This document shows, one piece after another, positions 37,004-50,105 of a stretch of DNA of 64,000 nt. The notes below the pieces were generated by a model. That model searched no databases. It was not told the origin of the DNA and saw only the letters and a program-made list of their open reading frames with translations. The first letter of the stretch is position 1. Every line of letters begins with the position of its first letter. The position numbers and the translations under genes are program-made. This DNA is from Planctomyces sp. SH-PL62 (GTDB lineage: Bacteria; Planctomycetota; Planctomycetia; Isosphaerales; Isosphaeraceae), in NCBI RefSeq assembly GCF_001610895.1, contig NZ_CP011273.1:5580001-5644000 (forward strand), given 5' to 3'.

Positions 37004-38404
37004 ATGAACAGAATCGCAACCGGCCTGCTGCTCACGGTTCTCGCCGTCTCAGCTCCACGGGAGGCCTCCGCGTTGATCACCGGCGGCACGGGCAACACCC
37101 CGCTCCGCGACCCGGGCTGGCCTGCCGGCGGGGCGGCGATCTTCAACCACCCGGGCCGCGTCGCCTGGTGGGAGGGCCCGCCGTTCGGCGGCGGCCAATG
37201 GCATTCCGAGTGCCGGGGCGACGTCGATGCCCTGAACGCCGTGCTGGCCGACTTCTCCAAGCTCGATGTCAAGAACCGGCGGATCGTCGTCCGCGACGGC
37301 ACCGGCCACAGCTTCTGGCTCGCCCCGAATCAGGAGCCGGAGAAGCTCGCGGCGGCGAAGATCGACTGGGCGTTCACGGTCTGGGTGCCGGCCAACTGGG
37401 AGCAGCTCCGCAATCTGCCGCCCGACCTGAACCCGACCGGCGTCGGGGAAACCTCGCCGCCCTCGCAGATCGACGTCTACACCGCCGGCATCGACTGGGC
37501 GGCAGTGACCGTCCCGACGGGGATCGAGGTCGTCGACCAGCGACTGGTGGCGCACGGCTTCACGCCCGCCGACGGGGCGGTGCTGGAAGGCAAGGTCACC
37601 GACCTGACGACCGGGCGGCCCCTGGCCGCCACCATGCGTCTCCAGCGCGTCGAGACGCAGCAGAAAGGCGGGCACCTCTACTCGGCCATCGCCGAAGCCA
37701 GGGCGGACGCCCAGGGCCGCTGGGTGCTGAAGAAGGCCTCGGCCGGCTGGGTCCGCGTGGTCGTCGAGACGGAAGGCTTCGTGCCCCGAGTCGCCGGATA
37801 TGCCCGGCTCGACGGCCAGCCGCGCTGGCAGTCCTTCGATTCCGGCCTGGTCCGGTCGGCCCCGGTCTCGGGACGGGTGATCGACGAGGACGCGAAGCCG
37901 CTTGCCGACGTCGATGTGCGGTTCGGAAACGTCCAGGCCGCGTCCGGCGGCAGATACGCCTCACCTTCGGCGTACGAGTTCAAGACGGACGCCGACGGCC
38001 GTTTCCAGGCCGAGCCGATTCCGGCGGGCACGGCGACGATCTGGGTTCATAAGCCGGGTTATTACGGACTCGGCCTTGGCCATCCCGTCAAGTCGCCGGA
38101 GGCGAACGTCGAGATCCGCATGAAGAGGGCCGGAGGCATCCGGGTCACGGTGGATTTCGCCGGGAAGAAGCGGGCCGGTGACTACGTGGTCAAGCTCTCG
38201 CCGGAGGGCGGCGACGTGGTCGGCTCGTACGGCGGCTCGGGGAACATCGACGCCAAGGACCAGATGTATTTCGCGATCCTGCCGCCGGGCCGCTACGTCC
38301 TGACTGGGCGGCCGAATCCGGGCTCGGAGAGCGAGGAGACCGAGCCCGTCACGATCGACGTGAAGGCCGGCCCGGCAGCGGAGATCACGCTGAAGGCGAG
38401 GTGA
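37004..38404 (+). CDS. secreted protein with carboxypeptidase-regulatory-like domains
   Basis: 466 residues with a signal peptide (MNRIATGLLLTVLAVSAPRE). The first 180 residues are a domain found in planctomycete secreted proteins (DVKNRRIVVRDGTGHSFWL). Two beta-sandwich repeats follow, each starting with an EGKVTD or SGRVIDEDAKPL strand and containing GRWVLKKASAGWVRV or GRFQAEPIPAGTATI, which is the carboxypeptidase regulatory-like (CarboxypepD_reg) pattern. No enzyme active site seen. It probably acts at the cell surface in binding or assembly. It is monocistronic. Confidence 0.75.
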   Translation: MNRIATGLLLTVLAVSAPREASALITGGTGNTPLRDPGWPAGGAAIFNHPGRVAWWEGPPFGGGQWHSECRGDVDALNAVLADFSKLDVKNRRIVVRDGTGHSFWLAPNQEPEKLAAAKIDWAFTVWVPANWEQLRNLPPDLNPTGVGETSPPSQIDVYTAGIDWAAVTVPTGIEVVDQRLVAHGFTPADGAVLEGKVTDLTTGRPLAATMRLQRVETQQKGGHLYSAIAEARADAQGRWVLKKASAGWVRVVVETEGFVPRVAGYARLDGQPRWQSFDSGLVRSAPVSGRVIDEDAKPLADVDVRFGNVQAASGGRYASPSAYEFKTDADGRFQAEPIPAGTATIWVHKPGYYGLGLGHPVKSPEANVEIRMKRAGGIRVTVDFAGKKRAGDYVVKLSPEGGDVVGSYGGSGNIDAKDQMYFAILPPGRYVLTGRPNPGSESEETEPVTIDVKAGPAAEITLKAR

Positions 38405-39789: not shown

Positions 39790-40636
39790 CTAGGTTCTGT
39801 CTGACGGCTCGATGAGCCGAAAGCAACGGCGGATCATGGCCAGCTTGACCATGGCCAGGAAGTTGACCGCCAGCTTCTCGAACCGCGTCGCCAGCCGCCG
39901 GTTCTCCTTCATCCAGAGGATGCACCTCTCGACGATGTTGCGGCGGCGGTAGGCCTCGGCGTCGAACGTCGGGCTTCGCCGCTGGTCCTTGCGGGTCGGG
40001 ATCACCGCCTTGATCCCTCGCCGTCGCAGGTAGCGGCGGATGCGTCTGTAGCTATACCCCTTGTCGCCGGCCAGGCGGCGGGGCCGGCGTCGCGGCCGGC
40101 CCCGGCCGGGCCGCTTGATCCGCACCGCCTCGAGCGCCGGCTCCAGGGACCTCGACTCGTGGGCCCGGCCCGCGGTGACGACGGCCGACAGCGGGACGCC
40201 GCCGGAGTCGACGACCAGGTGCAGCTTCGTCCCGAAGCCGCCGCGCGAGCGGCCGAGGGCGTGGTCGGCCGGCTCGGCCGTCCCCCTTTTCCCCCCCGGC
40301 CCCGGCGGCCGCGCGGCCGGCCCGGATGGACGTCCCGTCGATGCACCAGAGGTCGAAGTCGATCCGCCCCGAGGCGTCCAGCTCGAGATGCAGCCGCTCC
40401 AGGATGCGGTCGATCGTGCCGTCGCGGGCCCAGCGGTTGAATCGGTCGTAGACGCTCTTCCACTTTCCGTATCGCTCCGGCAGCTCCCGCCACTGGGCGC
40501 CCGTATGGAGGATCCAGAGGACGCCGTCGAGCGTCGTGCGGTGGTCGTTCCACCGCCCGCCCGGCCTCCCGACCGGAGGGAGCAGGTCGGCGATCAGGGC
40601 GAACTCCTCGTCCTTCAGCTCGTAGCGTCGCGTCAT
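39790..40636 (-). CDS. IS5-family transposase, two frames
   Basis: The first frame starts at ATG 40636 (MTRRYELKDEEFALIADLLP) and includes the DDE segment DLWCIDGTSIRA. The second frame carries LHLVVDSGGVPLSAVV and the C-terminal YREK-like signature YRRRNIVERCILWMKENRRL, ending at 39790. The two join at GGGGGGGAAAAGGGGG (about 40290-40305), where a +1 shift is needed, so a programmed frameshift is likely. The final stop TAG is made by the last IS base pairing with the flanking TA target, outside the inverted repeat. It catalyses cut-and-paste transposition of its own element. Confidence 0.85.
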
Positions 40637-40693
40637 CGCGGCCTCCTCGGGGAAGCCGCTATCGTAACGCCTTGCGAGCCGTCAGACAGAACC
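39793..40693 (-). mobile_element. IS5-family (IS427-like) element, copy 1
   Basis: 901 bases bounded by perfect 18-bp inverted repeats, GGTTCTGTCTGACGGCTC at 39793-39810 and its complement at 40676-40693. Both flanks read C-TA-G, so the duplicated target is TA (or CTAG). It interrupts the DJ-1/PfpI gene. A second, 902-base copy lies at 55361-56262 in the opposite orientation. The size, ends, target and two-frame transposase fit the IS427 group of IS5. Confidence 0.9.
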
Positions 40694-40896
40694 TAGAACG
40701 AGGAGGGCGAGGTCAGTCGCGAGGATGCGGCGCCGTACAATCTCGAAGAGGAACTCCAGAAACGTGGCGCCAAGTACGGCAGGGCCTGGATGGCGATCAG
40801 CTCCCACGTCGAGGATGGGAACCTCATCACGGGCCAGAACCCGACGAGCCCGGCGGCCGTGGACGAGGCGCTCGTGTAGTAGCTGAAGGAGGGGTG

Positions 40897-41565
40897 ATGC
40901 TCACGATCGACGTGATTTCGGATGTGATCTGCCCGTGGTGCTTCATCGGCAAGCGACGGCTGGAGAAGGCCCTGAATGGCCGGGCCGCCACGGTCCGCTG
41001 GCACCCCTTCCAGCTCAACCCTGACATGCCCCGAGAGGGCATCGAGCGTCGCGAGTACCGAATCAGGAAGTTCGGTAGCTGGGAGCGGTCGCAGGGACTC
41101 GACGCCCAGGTGGCCGCCGCCGGGCGGGGCGAGGGCATCGCGTTCAACTTCGACCGCCAGTCGCGTACCCCGAACACGCTCGACGCTCATAGGGTCATCT
41201 GGCTCGCCGGCGAGCGGGGCGTCCAGGACGCGGTGGCCGAAGCCCTGTTCCTCGCCTACTTCACCGAAGGCCGCGACCTGGCCGACCGGGAAACGCTCGC
41301 GGAGATCGCGGCTGGGGCTGGTCTCACCCAGGTGGAGGAGCTGCTCGCGGGTGACAAGGGGCTGGACGTCGTCCGGGCTGGTGAGGAGCAGGCCCGCCAC
41401 CTTGGCGTGTCCGGCGTGCCGTTCTTCGTCGTGAACGGGAAGGTCGCCCTGTCCGGCGCCCAGCCGCCGGAGCTGTTCCTGCAGGCGTTTGAGCAGGCAG
41501 GCGAGGGGGTCGTGGCTGGCGAGTCGTGCGAGATCGACTCGGAGACGGGTGGGCGAGGGTGTTGA
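40897..41565 (+). CDS. DsbA-family oxidoreductase (FrnE-like)
   Basis: 222 residues from the ATG at 40897, preceded by AAGGAGGGG. No signal peptide, so probably cytosolic like FrnE. The thioredoxin-fold active site is CPWC in VISDVICPWCFIGKRRLEKA. FrnE/2-hydroxychromene-isomerase landmarks follow: WHPFQLNPDMPREG, NTLDAHRVIWLA and the cis-Pro loop GVSGVPFFVVNGK. It would catalyse dithiol/disulfide exchange, and FrnE homologues help in oxidative stress. It starts 17 bases after the ruined DJ-1/PfpI gene and may once have shared its transcript. Confidence 0.9.
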   Translation: MLTIDVISDVICPWCFIGKRRLEKALNGRAATVRWHPFQLNPDMPREGIERREYRIRKFGSWERSQGLDAQVAAAGRGEGIAFNFDRQSRTPNTLDAHRVIWLAGERGVQDAVAEALFLAYFTEGRDLADRETLAEIAAGAGLTQVEELLAGDKGLDVVRAGEEQARHLGVSGVPFFVVNGKVALSGAQPPELFLQAFEQAGEGVVAGESCEIDSETGGRGC

Positions 41566-42043: not shown

Positions 42044-42230
42044 ATGCACACGACCAGGGCGGCCATGTTCCACCCCGGCCGGATCGTCGCTACGCCCGGG
42101 GCCCTGGAGGCCGGCCGGGCCAGCGGTCAGAGGCCCGAGACCTTCCTCGCCGCCCACATGGAGGGCTACCTGGGCGGCGACCTCTGGGACGAGGACCGCC
42201 GCCTCAACGAAACCTCGTCCGCCATCCCGG
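42044..42230 (+). pseudogene. truncated plasmid-type hypothetical gene
   Basis: From ATG 42044 the frame reads FHPGRIVATPGALEAGRASG and QRPETFLAAHMEGYLGGDLW, then DEDRRLNETS. This matches the N-terminal half of a small conserved protein common on plasmids and integrative elements (pattern G-x-(I/V)-VATPGALEA, later DLxxEDxxxNE, usually followed by LLSAYR and a WIITEADRSxT tail). The second half is missing: similarity ends about 42220, a few bases before the 3' end of a tRNA-like gene on the other strand. This marks a recombination junction. Confidence 0.6.
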
Positions 42231-42237
42231 AAAGAGA

Positions 42238-42308
42238 TCTGGGGGCAGGGCTCGAACCTGCGTCCAGTCGGTCCAGAGCCGACCGCTCTACCTCTGAGCT
42301 ACCCCAGA
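42238..42308 (-). tRNA. tRNA-Gln-like (anticodon CUG)
   Basis: The complement of 42238-42308 folds as a 71-base cloverleaf. The acceptor is TCTGGGG/CCCCAGA, then TA, D-stem GCTC/GAGC with a seven-base loop AGAGGTA, anticodon stem GTCGG/CCGAC with loop CTCTGGA (anticodon CUG), a five-base variable loop and T-arm GCAGG-TTCGAGC-CCTGC. No CCA is encoded and base 73 would be U. U1-A72 fits glutamine tRNAs. The sequence is nearly identical to the neighbouring CCC-anticodon gene except in the anticodon loop and acceptor. Aminoacylation is not certain. Confidence 0.75.
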
Positions 42309-42325
42309 ATCGTTTCATCGAACGA

Positions 42326-42359
42326 ACATCCCGCCGACGACCTGCGTTCGGCGGGATGT
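42326..42359 (-). other. 12-bp hairpin between the two tRNA-like genes
   Basis: A perfect 12-bp stem (ACATCCCGCCGA at 42326-42337 with its complement at 42348-42359) and a ten-base loop. On the minus strand it directly follows the 3' end of the CCC-anticodon tRNA-like gene and precedes the CUG one. It could be a processing signal or a terminator (no T tract). Confidence 0.65.
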
Positions 42360-42429
42360 CCGGGGGCAGGGCTCGAACCTGCGTCCGGTCGGGTGGGAGC
42401 CGACCGCTCTACGTCTGAGCTACCCCGGA
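42359..42429 (-). tRNA. tRNA-Gly-like (anticodon CCC)
   Basis: The complement of 42359-42429 forms a 71-base cloverleaf. The acceptor is TCCGGGG/CCCCGGA, D-stem GCTC/GAGC with loop AGACGTA (the conserved GG of the D-loop is CG here), anticodon stem GTCGG/CCGAC with loop CTCCCAC (anticodon CCC) and the same T-arm as the CUG gene. U1-A72 and a C at base 73 are unusual for tRNA-Gly. No CCA is encoded. It starts seven bases after the stop codon of the unknown gene at 42437 on the same strand, so one transcript is likely. It may be a decayed tRNA or a tRNA-like RNA. Confidence 0.65.
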
Positions 42430-42436
42430 CAGGAGA

Positions 42437-43777
42437 CTATAGATCGGCCAGTGGGATCTCGACCCCCTTCCCCGAGAAGACGCCCATCCTGCGGAGCGCC
42501 AGGGCGAGCCCCGGGTGCCCGACGGTCACGCCGTGGACCAGCTCCGGCGTCGGGCGGAAGGCGTGGACCTTGCGGCCGGTCCGGGGGGCCGACCAGCCGC
42601 TCTTCACCGGGTCGACGCCGTGCCGGCGACAGGCGTCCTCCACGAGCGTCCTCGGGCAGTCGAGGGCCCCGGAGAGCACCTCCCAGGGGAGCGGCAGCTC
42701 GTTCCAGACCTGGGTGTCAGGGTCGAGACCTCCCCCGGTCATGCGGTGCCAGGCCGCCACGTCGGCGGCCATCAGTCGCAGCACCTTGCCGGGGCAGAGC
42801 CCCTCCAGCACCTCGTCCATGTCGAGGGCGTGCAGCAGGGCGATCCACGAGTCCCTCGCCTTGTTCCAGGCCCCCGCCGTGGCGTTCCAGGTCGAGGAGT
42901 CGTTCCCCTTCTTCACGATCATCGTCCGACGGTTGATGTTGCTGCGATCCCAAGTCTCCCTGAGCAAGGATGCGATCCGGTCGAGGATGCCGTACCACCG
43001 GCCCAGCAGCTCGCCCTTGCGGGCGTCGTCGAGGCGGTCGAGCACCTCCTTGTCCGGGAACGCGTGGGCGATCGCCCACCAGTTCGTCGAGGCCGAGGCC
43101 CGGCAGCGGCGGAAGAGCAGGTCGCAGACCTGGTCGAACGGGCGCTGCTGGCCGGCGATGGTGAACTCGCTGCGGAGGTTGCAGCGGGCCGTGAGGTAGG
43201 CGACGAAGCAGGCGGCGTTGCGGTCCTTCGAGAACTCCTCCCAGGTGAGCGTGGACGCCAGCCGGCTCTTGCCGATCAGGGTGAACTCCCGCTTCTCGAC
43301 CTCCCTCGCCAGACGATCCCGCTTGCGCTCCATCCGGGCGGCGAGGCGGAATCGCTTGTTGTACTGCCGCTTCGGGATCTCCAACCCGGCCGACTTGCGG
43401 GTCGGGCGGTCGAGGCGGTCGTACTTGAAGTCGCCCCGCCCGAACGCCTTGCCGATCGTCGCCCCGGCCTGGACGAGGTAATCCTTGACGCCTTCCAGGT
43501 CCGTCCCCGAGGGCCGATCGCCGACATGGAAGAGCGACTCGGCCACGTCGAGCTGCCGGTCCATGCCGACCGGGCGGCGGAAGTCCTCCGCCATCGAAGA
43601 AAAGCCGAAGCCCCACCATCCCCGCTTCAACGAGCCCCCGGCGACCTTCTGGAGCGTGCGAAGCTCCCTGGGGGCGAGGTCGTCGAGTTCGCCGACGATC
43701 AGCTCGGCCACGTCCTCGGGACGCCGACGGCGGTCGAGCGACTCGTACAGCTCCCTCAGTCGGTCCCTGGCGTCCAC
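42437..43777 (-). CDS. unrecognised helical protein linked to two tRNA-like genes
   Basis: 446 residues from GTG 43777, chosen because GGAGGG lies seven bases upstream; an upstream start at 43921 would add 48 arginine-rich residues overlapping a LysR remnant. No family is recognised. The protein is mostly helical, with no signal peptide or membrane helix. A basic helical stretch (about 127-165, from RKSAGLEIPKRQYNKRFRLA) could bind RNA. Likely conserved cores are TARCNLRSEFTIAGQQRPFD (197-216), NWWAIAHAFPDKEVLDRLDD (232-251), SNINRRTMIVKKGNDSSTWN (279-298) and CPGKVLRLMAADVAAWHRMTG (near 328). The gene is intact although both sides are littered with gene fragments, and two tRNA-like genes follow directly. 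Confidence 0.7.
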   Translation of the reverse strand: MDARDRLRELYESLDRRRRPEDVAELIVGELDDLAPRELRTLQKVAGGSLKRGWWGFGFSSMAEDFRRPVGMDRQLDVAESLFHVGDRPSGTDLEGVKDYLVQAGATIGKAFGRGDFKYDRLDRPTRKSAGLEIPKRQYNKRFRLAARMERKRDRLAREVEKREFTLIGKSRLASTLTWEEFSKDRNAACFVAYLTARCNLRSEFTIAGQQRPFDQVCDLLFRRCRASASTNWWAIAHAFPDKEVLDRLDDARKGELLGRWYGILDRIASLLRETWDRSNINRRTMIVKKGNDSSTWNATAGAWNKARDSWIALLHALDMDEVLEGLCPGKVLRLMAADVAAWHRMTGGGLDPDTQVWNELPLPWEVLSGALDCPRTLVEDACRRHGVDPVKSGWSAPRTGRKVHAFRPTPELVHGVTVGHPGLALALRRMGVFSGKGVEIPLADL

Positions 43778-43917: not shown

Positions 43918-44149
43918 TCACGGGTCGGCGTGTCGTCCTCCCCGGCCGACGACGGCCCGGATCGCCTCGGAGAAGGCCGTGCGGGTGCGCGGCGGGACGC
44001 AGCCACGACGCCGCAGGAGCCCGACGGATCGGCGGGGCGTCGGCCGCGCCAAACGAATCGCCACGACGCCCGGCCCGCCCGCCCCCATCGCCGGCAGGAC
44101 CGTCGCCGGGCCACCGAGCCCGTATTGCGAGCGACCTACACCGACCCGC
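43918..44149 (-). pseudogene. C-terminal remnant of a LysR-family regulator
   Basis: The minus-strand frame ending at the TGA 43918-43920 reads YGLGGPATVLPAMGAGGPGV then VAIRLARPTPRRSVGLLRRR and AFSEAIRAVVG. This is the final beta-alpha unit of a LysR substrate-binding domain (GVALLPAM...GVVxVPL...PRRxxGL pattern). The DNA-binding half is absent, and upstream the sequence changes to a methyltransferase remnant near 44185. Confidence 0.55.
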
Positions 44150-44420: not shown

Positions 44421-45240
44421 TAATCGTACCGGCCCATCTCACGATAGACGGTCATGGGGGACACGCCGCACTCCTTGGCGATGGTCGAGGCCTTCTTCCC
44501 CTCGGCGATGAGCGCCCGCACCTTCTCCCGGACAGCCGCCGACAAGTACTGCTTCACCTCCTCGGTGGGGTCGTCGGGGGAGGCGGCGAAGACCGGGGCG
44601 AAGTAGGCGTGCATCCTCCGCAGGCATCGTGCAACCGTCCGAACGGTCGATTCCCGTAGCATTCGAGCAGGTTGTCGCCCTGAAACGGCTGTCCGTGGGC
44701 CAGGCAGAGCGAGGCCAGGTCGTCGCTCTCACGATGCCTCAACAGGTCCGGCAGCGTGTCCCGCAGCATCCCGAAGGGGAGGATCGGGAACTCGGGGTCG
44801 GACTTCCGCACCCGCTTGAGCAGGCGGGTCCAGACGTTCGCAAAGTGGTACTGGGCGTTGGTCTCATGCTCCCTGTACCAGGGCATGCCCTCCTCGGAAA
44901 CGAGAAGCAGTTCCGAGCCGATATTCCTGGACCGCTCCAGTCTCCACCGGAGCATCCTCGCCGTCTCGGGCCAGATCAGCCACTCCCCGAAGACCTCGGT
45001 CTTGGAGCGCAGGAGGCGAACGAAGCTGTCCTCGACCGTCGAGGAGAAGTGCAACCGCTCGGCGTATTCGTGGCGGTGGCCCAGCAGGATGTCTCCCCTG
45101 GCCAGACGTCCCCCCTCCGCCGCCCCCATGGCGCAGTTCAGCCCCAGGTACAGCAGCAGCCTCTCGGTGGGGGTGGCGTGCTTGTTAATAGTCGCCAGTT
45201 GCTCGGCCGAGTACACCCGCTTGGTGATGACCGACAGCAT
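44420..45240 (-). pseudogene. tyrosine recombinase remnant, frameshifted
   Basis: The first part (45240 to about 44625) reads ATPTERLLLYLGLNCAMGAA, LRSKTEVFGEWLIWPETARM and FGMLRDTLPDLLRHRESDDL, a divergent phage-integrase catalytic domain (the LRDTLPDLL box holds the expected R of the R-x-x-T/H-x-x-R region). After a one-base loss near GGTTGCACGATGCC the second frame continues MHAYFAPVFAASPDDPTEEV and ends with a resolvase-like helix-turn-helix (KVRALIAEGKKASTIAKECG). The 5' end is cut by an IS3 fragment. It is the probable mover of the accessory region, now dead. Confidence 0.6.
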
Positions 45241-46716: not shown

Positions 46717-47562
46717 ATGCGTTATCGCACGATCGACGTGGACGGACTCGACGTCTTCTACCGGGAGGCCGGGGAACCCGGGGCCCCGAATCTGCTGCTG
46801 CTCCACGGCTTCCCCAGCTCCAGCCACATGTTCCGCGACCTGATGCCGCTCCTGGCAGATCGTTTCCACGTCATCGCGCCCGACCTCCCGGGCTTCGGCC
46901 GCACGGCGATGCCGGCCCGAGACGCGTTCGCCTACACCTTCGACAACCTCGCCCGAGTCGTGGAACGCTTCACCGAGGTCATGAGCCTCGACCGGTTCGC
47001 GGTCTACGTCTTCGACTACGGGGCCCCGACGGGCTATCGCGTCGCGATGCGGCACCCGGAGCGGATCACCGCGATCATCTCCCAGAACGGCAACGCCTAT
47101 GAGGATGGGCTGAGCGACGGCTGGGACCCCATCCGTTCCTACTGGCGCGAGCCGTCGACGGCCAACCGGGACGCTCTCCGGTCTTTCCTGAGACCTGAGG
47201 CGACGCTCTGGCAGTACACCCACGGCGTTCCCGACGCGACCGCCGTCTCGCCGGACGGCTACTCGCTCGACGACTTCTACCTGGCGCGACCCGGGGCCGA
47301 CGAGATCCAGCTCGACCTGTTCCGCGACTATGCGAGCAACGTGGCCCTGTATCCCGCCTTCCAGGATTACTTCCGCACGCACCGGCCGCCGTTCCTGGCG
47401 GTCTGGGGCCGGAACGACCCGTTCTTCCTGCCCGCCGGTGCCGAGGCTTACAAGCGCGATATCCCGGACGCCGACATCCGCCTCTTCGAAACCGGGCACT
47501 TCGCGCTGGAGACGCATGCGGGTCCGATCGCCGTGGCGATTCGGGAATTCCTGGCCGGATGA
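46717..47562 (+). CDS. alpha/beta hydrolase (haloalkane dehalogenase/epoxide hydrolase type)
   Basis: 281 residues. The oxyanion loop is LLLLHGFPSSSHMFRDL. The nucleophile is Asp100 in YVFDYGAPTGYR, which replaces the usual Ser and marks the dehalogenase/epoxide hydrolase branch. An acid Asp234 lies in WGRNDPFF, and the catalytic His261 in FETGHFALE. It should hydrolyse a carbon-halogen, epoxide or similar bond in the cytosol. It is the first gene of the run leading to two oxidoreductases and is divergent from the CGNR regulator. Confidence 0.88.
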   Translation: MRYRTIDVDGLDVFYREAGEPGAPNLLLLHGFPSSSHMFRDLMPLLADRFHVIAPDLPGFGRTAMPARDAFAYTFDNLARVVERFTEVMSLDRFAVYVFDYGAPTGYRVAMRHPERITAIISQNGNAYEDGLSDGWDPIRSYWREPSTANRDALRSFLRPEATLWQYTHGVPDATAVSPDGYSLDDFYLARPGADEIQLDLFRDYASNVALYPAFQDYFRTHRPPFLAVWGRNDPFFLPAGAEAYKRDIPDADIRLFETGHFALETHAGPIAVAIREFLAG

Positions 47563-48689: not shown

Positions 48690-48725
48690 CCGGCCACAGT
48701 GGTCATCGAATCCGAGGAGAAGGTC

Positions 48726-50105
48726 ATGGCGCATCCCGAAGATTACGACGTGGTCGTCCTGGGCAGCGGGGCCCCCGGCAAGCTGGTCGCCTGGGCGCTC
48801 GCCTCGCGAGGGCAACGGGTGGCGGTCGTCGAGCGGCGCTACGTGGGCGGTGCCTGCCCGAACATCGCCTGCCTGCCCAGCAAGAACATCATCCACGACG
48901 CCAGGGTCGCCGACCTCGTCCGCAGGAGCGCCGAGTTCGGCATCTCGCGCGGCGAGTGGCAGGTCGACATGGCGGCCGTCCGCGACCGCAAGCGGAAGAT
49001 GGTCGACGGGCTGGTCGAGATGCACCTGGCGAAGTACCGGGAGAGCGGAGCCGAACTCGTCATGGGTAGCGGGCGCTTCGTCGCGCCCAGGACCATCGAG
49101 GTCGCGCTCAACGAAGGGGGCTCGCGGACGCTCCGCGGCAAGACGGTGGTCATCAACACCGGTTCGAGGGCCCGGCTCGACGACACCCCCGGCCTCGCGG
49201 AGTCCGGCCCCCTCACGCATGTCGAGGCCCTGGAGCTGGACCGGCTGCCTGAGCACCTGCTCGTACTGGGCGGCGGCTACGTGGGGCTGGAGCTGGCGCA
49301 GGCCTTCCGCCGCTTCGGCAGCCGCGTGACGATCGTCGAGCGCAACGGTGCCCTGATCCACCGCGAAGACGAGGACGTGACCAAGGCCGTCGAGCGGCTC
49401 CTGCGCGACGAAGGCATCGAGATACGGACCGGCACGGCGGTCGAGCGCGTCGAGGGGACGTCCGGCGATTCCGTCCGCCTGCATACGGCGGGAGGTGCGA
49501 TCGAGGGAACGCACCTGCTCGTCGCCGGCGGGCGCACCCCGAACACCGACGGCATCGGGCTGGAGTCGGTCGGGGTGGAAGTGGACGCACGGGGCCACAT
49601 CAAGGTCGACGAGCGGCTGCGGACCACGGCGGAGGGCGTGTGGGCGGCGGGCGATTGCGCCGGGAGCCCTTACTTCACGCATATCGGCGAGGACGACTTC
49701 CGCGTGCTGCTGGCCAACCTCACCGGCGGTGACCGCGTGACGACCGGGCGGCAGGTCCCCTACTGCCTGTTCACCGACCCGGAGTTGGCCCGGGTGGGCC
49801 TGAGCGAGCGGGAGGCCAAGGAAAGTGGCGTGAGCTACCGCCTGGCCAAACTCCCAATGCAGGGCGTGCTGCGGGCACGGACCCTCTCCGAGACGCAGGG
49901 ATTCTTCAAGGCCCTGGTCGAGGCGGACGGCGAGCGCATCCTAGGATTCACCGCGTTCGGGCCCGAGGCTGGTGAGGTCATGGCCGTCGTCCAGGTGGCG
50001 ATCCTGGCGGGCCTGCCGTACACGGCGTTGCGGGACGCCGTCCTGACCCACCCGACGATGGCCGAAGGGCTCGCCGGGCTGTTTGGATCGGTACCGAACG
50101 GCTGA
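48726..50105 (+). CDS. pyridine nucleotide-disulfide oxidoreductase (RclA/mercuric reductase-like)
   Basis: 459 residues from ATG 48726 after GAGGAGAAGGTC. FAD-binding motif VVLGSGAPGKLVAWALA, redox cysteines C44 and C49 in GGACPNIACLPSKN, NAD(P)-binding VLGGGYVGLELAQAF, the FAD site VWAAGDCAGSPYFTHIG and the dimer interface ending THPTMAEGLAGLF. Lipoamide dehydrogenases share the fold, but no dehydrogenase complex genes are near. With a DUF417 (RclC-like) gene just downstream, the closest context match is the reactive-chlorine defence protein RclA. Mercuric reductase is less likely, as no N-terminal MerP-like domain or C-terminal Cys pair is seen. Confidence 0.85.
   Translation: MAHPEDYDVVVLGSGAPGKLVAWALASRGQRVAVVERRYVGGACPNIACLPSKNIIHDARVADLVRRSAEFGISRGEWQVDMAAVRDRKRKMVDGLVEMHLAKYRESGAELVMGSGRFVAPRTIEVALNEGGSRTLRGKTVVINTGSRARLDDTPGLAESGPLTHVEALELDRLPEHLLVLGGGYVGLELAQAFRRFGSRVTIVERNGALIHREDEDVTKAVERLLRDEGIEIRTGTAVERVEGTSGDSVRLHTAGGAIEGTHLLVAGGRTPNTDGIGLESVGVEVDARGHIKVDERLRTTAEGVWAAGDCAGSPYFTHIGEDDFRVLLANLTGGDRVTTGRQVPYCLFTDPELARVGLSEREAKESGVSYRLAKLPMQGVLRARTLSETQGFFKALVEADGERILGFTAFGPEAGEVMAVVQVAILAGLPYTALRDAVLTHPTMAEGLAGLFGSVPNG

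Follow-up and report, generated by a model that had tools for sequence, protein, structure and literature searches.

The window analysed here, a stretch of 64,000 nucleotides of Planctomyces sp. SH-PL62 (contig NZ_CP011273.1, positions 5,580,001 to 5,644,000), carries on its minus strand a gene for an all-helical protein of 446 residues, directly followed by two transfer RNA (tRNA)-like RNAs. Comparison of related loci makes it near certain that this protein family and this RNA family are paired, in bacterial genomes as well as in plasmids and viruses. The reading we prefer, with a probability of about 0.4, is that both form a mobile two-component ribonucleoprotein module, likely to serve in tRNA-damage conflicts between phages and hosts, whose mechanism is inferred.

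A scan of species-representative genomes yielded 144 relatives of the protein, and the loci of 80 of them, from Planctomycetota, Acidobacteriota, Chloroflexota, Cyanobacteriota, Bacteroidota, Actinomycetota, Verrucomicrobiota and Pseudomonadota, were examined. ARAGORN reports a tRNA-like RNA on the same strand, no more than 400 nt downstream of the protein match, in 79 of these loci, when such adjacency would be expected by chance in 0.08 of the 80 (6 other tRNAs in 1.26 Mb). The 80th locus (L082:6949-7019) contains an array collapsed into a single hybrid RNA of 67.9 bits, which joins the 5′ part of copy 1 to the 3′ end of copy 2 and has mismatched acceptor halves. Arrays of 2-3 copies occur in 44 of the 79 loci and single copies in 35. 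All counts given here include duplicates (L145 is L119, L056 is L070, L157 and L158 are one stretch) and the two sister genomes of SH-PL62 (G032 at L065 and G031 at L066). In these sister genomes, the protein gene is followed by RNAs with anticodons read as CAU and CUG (G032) or CCC and CUG (G031). The genus has the protein in 3 of its 6 genomes and the rest of the family in none of 39 (3/45 family-wide), and a wider draw of the phylum found it in 3 of 392 genomes, both new ones adjoining a tRNA-like RNA.

Seven plasmids, from Streptomyces, Hymenobacter and Miltoncostaea, also encode the protein, and ARAGORN finds the RNA in six of them; the seventh has a tRNA-like RNA with a loop of ~14 nt, located 35 nt upstream of the protein gene. 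Among viruses, 14 IMG/VR contigs (the largest of 435,804 bp) encode the protein, with an RNA detected by ARAGORN upstream or downstream of it in 12, while a covariance model recovers two upstream copies in one of the other two (L152) and a degenerate copy of 33 bits in the last (L154). A second viral scan gave 15 loci, 14 of which repeat contigs of the first, and added one contig (L182) with an upstream RNA that bears the family signature together with an odd D arm (61.5 bits). Head-protease and virion genes near some of the viral copies support a phage origin for these contigs, and no homologue was found among the INPHARED phages. The four loci missed by ARAGORN in the genome, plasmid and viral sets hold hybrid, long-loop or atypical copies, and no homologue lacking an adjacent tRNA-like RNA was found among the 80 genome, 7 plasmid and 14 viral loci. 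The suggestion of the initial annotation that the protein may act on, or together with, these RNAs gains support from this pairing across phyla.

In the window itself, the protein gene (42437..43777) starts at a GTG assumed to be the initiation codon (43777) and ends at the stop codon 42437-42439, its frame remaining open upstream of the assumed start as far as another GTG at 43921. Seven bases after the stop codon (42430-42436) lies RNA 1 (42358..42429; loop CUCCCAC, anticodon read as CCC, Gly; 59.6 bits by Rfam, also called by ARAGORN), followed by a 49-nt spacer with a hairpin (42309..42357) and by RNA 2 (42237..42308; loop CUCUGGA, anticodon read as CUG, Gln; 65.4 bits, by the same two programs), all on the minus strand. 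This layout, first described from the letters of the sequence, is confirmed by the list of open reading frames (ORFs), ARAGORN and Rfam, and the alignment bears out the near-identical bodies of both RNAs, their U1-A72 pair, the lack of an encoded CCA and the C that, in the CCC copy only, takes the place of the first G of the D-loop GG. Among 74 aligned RNAs, this replacement is found in that copy alone, both sister genomes having GG, and U1-A72, which is ordinary in bacterial tRNA-Gln, is not conserved in the related tRNA-like RNAs. As for the perfect 12-bp hairpin reported between the two RNAs, the hairpin is real (the spacer folds at -22.8 kcal/mol, z -2.7), but its arm has 10 bp outside RNA 1 and reaches 12 bp only when the last two bases of RNA 1 are included; a shorter hairpin is predicted between the RNAs in both sister genomes. 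In isolation, the minimum free energy fold is a cloverleaf for the CUG copy and not for the CCC copy.

The RNA family combines a constant body with a variable anticodon loop. In the 74 aligned RNAs, 98.5% of the cells of the cloverleaf are paired, compared with 79.8% in shuffles, and all seven acceptor pairs (7/7) show changes on both sides, so that the cloverleaf is maintained by compensatory change. The acceptor stem and the discriminator vary, whereas hardly any change is seen in the T arm, in most of the D arm and in the anticodon stem next to the loop; the pairs G30-C40 and G31-C39 never change, and 122 of 126 copies have CUC (C32 U33 C34) at the start of the loop. Beyond this start, the 126 copies show 56 distinct anticodon-loop sequences, with a length of 8 nt in 91 copies, 7 in 30, 9 in 3 and 6 in 2. 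Divergence is concentrated in this segment, reaching 0.33 in the variable loop versus 0.028 in the body for the Chryseobacterium RNA 2, and 0.50 versus 0.031 for the Streptomyces RNAs. A purine follows the anticodon in 83 of 121 copies and a pyrimidine in 38, compared with a purine in 47/47 host tRNAs; together with the 8-nt loops of most copies, this suggests that the family is not built for decoding. The two copies of the window have themselves 7-nt loops and a purine after the anticodon, and CCA is encoded in 13 of the 126 copies. In none of the 44 arrays do copies 1 and 2 have the same loop, a result on which nothing is built, as only 1.3 identities would be expected (P(0) 0.24).

The window RNAs do not belong to a common host set, a result that the initial annotation had named as a refutation: they share at most 74% identity with any of the 47 ordinary tRNAs of SH-PL62, a genome already equipped with Gln(CTG), Gln(TTG) and Gly(CCC) tRNAs. 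The CUG copy, on the other hand, is 92% identical to a tRNA-like RNA from Ktedonobacter (Chloroflexota) and 89% to an alphaproteobacterial one, with different anticodons, so the RNA follows the protein and not the host. A covariance model (R1) scores RNA 2 at 92.2 bits, RNA 1 at 84.3 and a third signature RNA of the genome at 73, above its ordinary tRNAs (up to 63.3 bits). Phylum-wide, however, scores far over 70 bits (83.5 at most) are also reached by ordinary tRNA-Asn, -Cys, -Ser and -Arg, and 156 of the 392 genomes pass the threshold, so R1 alone is not a specific detector. Among 12 R1 loci that were read, three have the protein, eight are ordinary tRNAs and one is an orphan signature RNA (L164, G196:C1:2931965-2932040), with a loop read as ctta, an encoded CCA and no homologue of the protein within 1.5 kb.

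The protein shows no recognised family, in agreement with the first description. The window protein alone has GYF_2 as its best Pfam match (E 0.42), no PHROG match and two weak matches to PDB sequences (E 0.057 and 1.6). When 56 homologues were scanned against Pfam (E up to 0.1), 15 families were matched, none of them consistently: GYF_2 in four members (best E 0.0033), FeoB_Cyto and DUF2959 in two each and the others in one, the best single value being that of DinB_2 (0.00057). NCBIfam gave scattered matches, each in 1-2 of the 56 members, no PADLOC model (library of 2023) was matched by more than one (best E 0.00056), and no PDB sequence relative was found for the set. These Pfam, NCBIfam and PADLOC matches, weak and each limited to one to four members, were taken as chance, and neither the Pfam nor the NCBIfam scans revealed a synthetase, factor, Thg1, RNA ligase or RlaP domain. 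The AlphaFold2 model, built from 56 aligned rows, is mostly helical, with a predicted local distance difference test score (pLDDT) of 90.9 and a predicted template modelling score (pTM) of 0.89. Foldseek found nothing in the PDB at E 0.001 (best E 0.74), and the best VIA structural comparison, with an importin chain, has a Z of 6.0 over 86 residues, a value common for helical models; such searches without a confident solved relative would not prove a new fold. The predicted fold is matched in two uncharacterised proteins of giant viruses, A0A3G4ZSE3 of Edafosvirus (E 1.9e-15, template modelling score 0.68 by query length) and A0A5K0U9D9 of Yasminevirus (E 4.2e-12, 0.67), which are longer (579 and 551 residues) and share 16% identity with it. 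The ratio of nonsynonymous to synonymous substitution rates (0.21-0.25) indicates that the protein is under purifying selection.

The distance from the stop codon to the first RNA has a median of 14 nt over 75 loci, leaving out L104, L116, L121 and L122 (internal stops or no clean start), and the RNA overlaps the coding sequence in 10. Such short or overlapping gaps suggest that the protein messenger and the RNA are probably co-transcribed and then cut apart. Streptomyces and its relatives have a longer gap, with a promoter-like TTG(A/C)CC-17/18-box before the RNA in 10 of 21 cases. In the phage locus L152 (7700-7970), two tRNA-like RNAs upstream of the protein lie, as judged by eye, behind a consensus-like promoter (TTGACA and TATAGT).

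Other loci show further arrangements. The Sulfidibacter chromosome (L119/L145:7909-9674) has one tRNA-like RNA upstream of the protein and three downstream, and an identical stretch is present in an IMG/VR contig. The most divergent homologue (L064:5850-5935; 34-35% identity) has an RNA loop of ~14 nt, and its neighbours include RlaP, an RNA ligase and two genes that carry the annotation peptidyl-tRNA hydrolase. In SH-PL62, a second site outside the window (5664366-5664685; L036:4367-4686) holds a frameshifted C-terminal remnant of the protein, directly preceding a signature tRNA-like hybrid whose acceptor takes its 5′ half from copy 1 and its 3′ half from copy 2. The downstream flank of this remnant matches the sequence that flanks the intact unit in the two sister genomes, and a gene that looks by eye like a histone deacetylase adjoins it.

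Around the window unit, broken transposase-like ORFs and a tyrosine-recombinase-like ORF were recognised by eye (39790-40636 and 44554-45240). The view that everything around it is decayed was nevertheless overstated, since several adjacent ORFs are long and open, such as 37004-38404, 40672-41565, 46717-47562 and 48699-50105. Synteny with the sister genomes stops 3-27 nt beyond RNA 2 on its 3′ side (window ~42210-42234), and the flank beyond this breakpoint corresponds to sequence located ~4.4 kb further downstream in the sister genomes, as if the tRNA-like RNA had been a point of recombination.

On the well-supported branches of the protein tree, the Acidobacteriota label requires at least three gains or losses (one would be a single clade), and Pseudomonadota, Planctomycetota, Bacteroidota and phages two each, which makes transfer between phyla likely, perhaps by phages; one phage clade is nested with Andreprevotia. 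A constant operon partner was sought and none was found, the recurrent neighbour clusters being mostly Chryseobacterium or Streptomyces synteny. The neighbouring ORFs scanned were 127 of 222 bacterial and 82 of 121 viral ones, the rest, mostly short, having been removed by hand, and the bacterial set gave single PADLOC matches to a reverse transcriptase, Cas1 and others. RNA-repair genes are present in the fetched flanks of 10 of 103 loci (L157 and L158 being one stretch): Thg1 near L057 and L146, RlaP near L064, L152 and L157/L158, and RNA ligases, some with kinase-like domains, near L064, L066, L067, L090, L098 and L146, with a weak ligase-like match at L063 (E 0.0005) left out of the count. 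An RNA ligase is encoded by 30 of 47 carrier genomes (27 above the curated cut-off) and lies within 5 kb of the unit in three (L066, L067, L090) and at 5.6 kb in L098; the 63 listed positions of ligases lead one to expect ~0.1 cases within 5 kb.

According to the ribonucleoprotein reading, a single all-helical protein would be produced from the same locus as its cognate tRNA-like RNAs, one to three in number, and would hold these RNAs through the constant anticodon stem and the elbow, leaving the variable loop exposed. With less certainty, the resulting particle may act in conflicts among phages, plasmids and hosts that involve tRNA damage, where it would be a decoy, a sensor or a repair platform for enzymes attacking anticodon loops, and the loop would vary because the attackers change. 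The adjacency in all loci examined, the purifying selection, the kept cloverleaf and the variable loop argue for a module rather than for ordinary tRNAs. A role in tRNA damage is suggested by the variable bases being those that anticodon nucleases target, according to PMC7824862 and PMC10264068, by the phage and plasmid carriage and by the recurring repair genes; the presence in large phage contigs and plasmids, the patchy spread and the cross-phylum transfer would provide the setting for such conflicts. However, several observations weigh against this proposal. The variability of the loop could reflect relaxed constraint instead of an arms race, and a decoy should mimic the anticodon loops of the host, which 8-nt loops with a fixed C34 do not. 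One of five covariation measures, the number of pairs with a change on both sides (14 vs 12.4), does not exceed the shuffled level. As to the neighbours, each Pfam family is limited to at most 3 of the 127 bacterial ORFs and each PADLOC model to at most one, Thg1 is encoded by 10 of the 47 carrier genomes and is beside the unit in only one, and the minority of repair genes nearby could reflect shared residence in variable regions.

Other explanations can be confronted with the same data. A toxin-antitoxin or abortive infection system, in which the RNA would hold a toxic protein, or the protein would check a toxic odd tRNA causing mistranslation or frameshifting, would account for the compact two-gene layout, the plasmid and phage carriage, the patchy spread and the variable specificity region. 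We regard it as unlikely, as no toxin family appears among the weak Pfam and PADLOC matches of the 56 homologues, the RNA is a well-kept cloverleaf and not a toxin-binding repeat, and tRNA-like RNAs persist both as the orphan of G196 and at L121, where the read-through protein frame has 11 stops. Loops of 8 nt are typical of frameshift suppressors, so charged tRNAs that read four-base codons or suppress frameshifts, with the protein aiding their charging or delivery, should also be considered, all the more with CCA encoded in some copies; nonetheless, the pyrimidine after the anticodon in almost a third of the copies, the ordinary 7-mer loops of 30 of the 126 copies, an acceptor stem and discriminator too little conserved to make a common amino-acid identity visible, and a protein without synthetase or factor domains render this recoding improbable.

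A guide-like particle, whose variable loop would pair with a target RNA on which the protein acts, is suggested by an RNA that follows the protein gene and has one hypervariable segment in a fixed scaffold. Yet only 4-5 bases vary, the complementary 6-mer is not in excess in the locus's own gene (34/126 copies vs 37.6 by shuffling) and Pfam detects no nuclease domain in the 56 members, so we hold this possibility in low esteem too. Finally, both window RNAs score as good tRNAs and a rearrangement breakpoint is found immediately beyond RNA 2 on its 3′ side, as would be the case for ordinary tRNA genes, or a tRNA-gene integration site, beside an unrelated orphan gene; RNAs that accompany the protein across phyla and differ from host tRNAs make this very improbable. 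Moreover, the 7-nt loop (30/126) and the purine at position 37 (83/121), which are expected of ordinary bacterial tRNA genes, do not hold across the family, and the bodies of the window RNAs are not related to a host isoacceptor.

The nearest working analogue of the proposed module is Ro60/Rsr (TROVE) with its Y RNA (YrlA), found in rsr-yrlBA-rtcBA operons and in some jumbo phages according to passages of PMC7790460 and PMC7824862; in the former, a tRNA-like RNA that inhibits an anticodon nuclease is mentioned as one possibility. Both cases, as far as these passages describe the first, share a protein gene beside a tRNA-like RNA, a link to RNA repair and occurrence in phages. However, the module would not be of the Ro60 family: Pfam detects no TROVE domain in the 56 members, no convincing match to the Ro60 ring fold was seen (Foldseek gave no PDB match at E 0.001, and the best VIA comparison is the importin chain), and, in contrast to YrlA, each RNA forms an entire cloverleaf whose anticodon loop is hypervariable, with one to three RNAs per array. 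Phage tRNAs with altered anticodon loops, proposed in PMC10264068 to evade anticodon nucleases, are similar in their changed loops but are presented in its abstract as tRNAs in their own right with no protein partner named, whereas here one RNA family is tied to one protein. The RNA-repair neighbourhoods of PMC2904730 (Thg1, polynucleotide kinase, RNA ligase, RlaP) recall the repair genes near a tenth of the copies, but the protein studied here has no repair-enzyme domain, and passages of that paper mention neither this protein nor a tRNA gene. No toxin of a known nuclease family, as expected of type III toxin-antitoxin systems (ToxN-ToxI like), is among the 15 matched Pfam families, and no PADLOC model of anti-phage defence is shared by the members. 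No description of the protein-RNA pair was found in an open-access library, which is weak evidence of novelty because subscription papers were mostly outside its scope.

Taken as a whole, an unclassified, well-folded protein family is linked to a tRNA-like RNA family in a tight pair that crosses phyla, a sign of an undescribed machine of protein and RNA and not of ordinary translation genes. Somewhat more tentatively than the module itself, the pair could be seen as a new class of RNA-armed protein machine in bacteria, huge phages and perhaps giant viruses, having a constant tRNA-shaped handle and an interchangeable loop that sets its specificity. tRNA finders mask these RNAs as tRNA-Gln, -Gly, -Lys or undetermined, and, if this reading is true, many of the 'tRNAs of undetermined type' in phages and bacteria would not be translation genes. 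Genetic-code engineers may take an interest in this natural set of anticodon loops, 6 to 9 nt long and all borne by one scaffold, and part of the reason why phages carry tRNA genes would become testable, as a share of them may work for a partner protein instead of translation.
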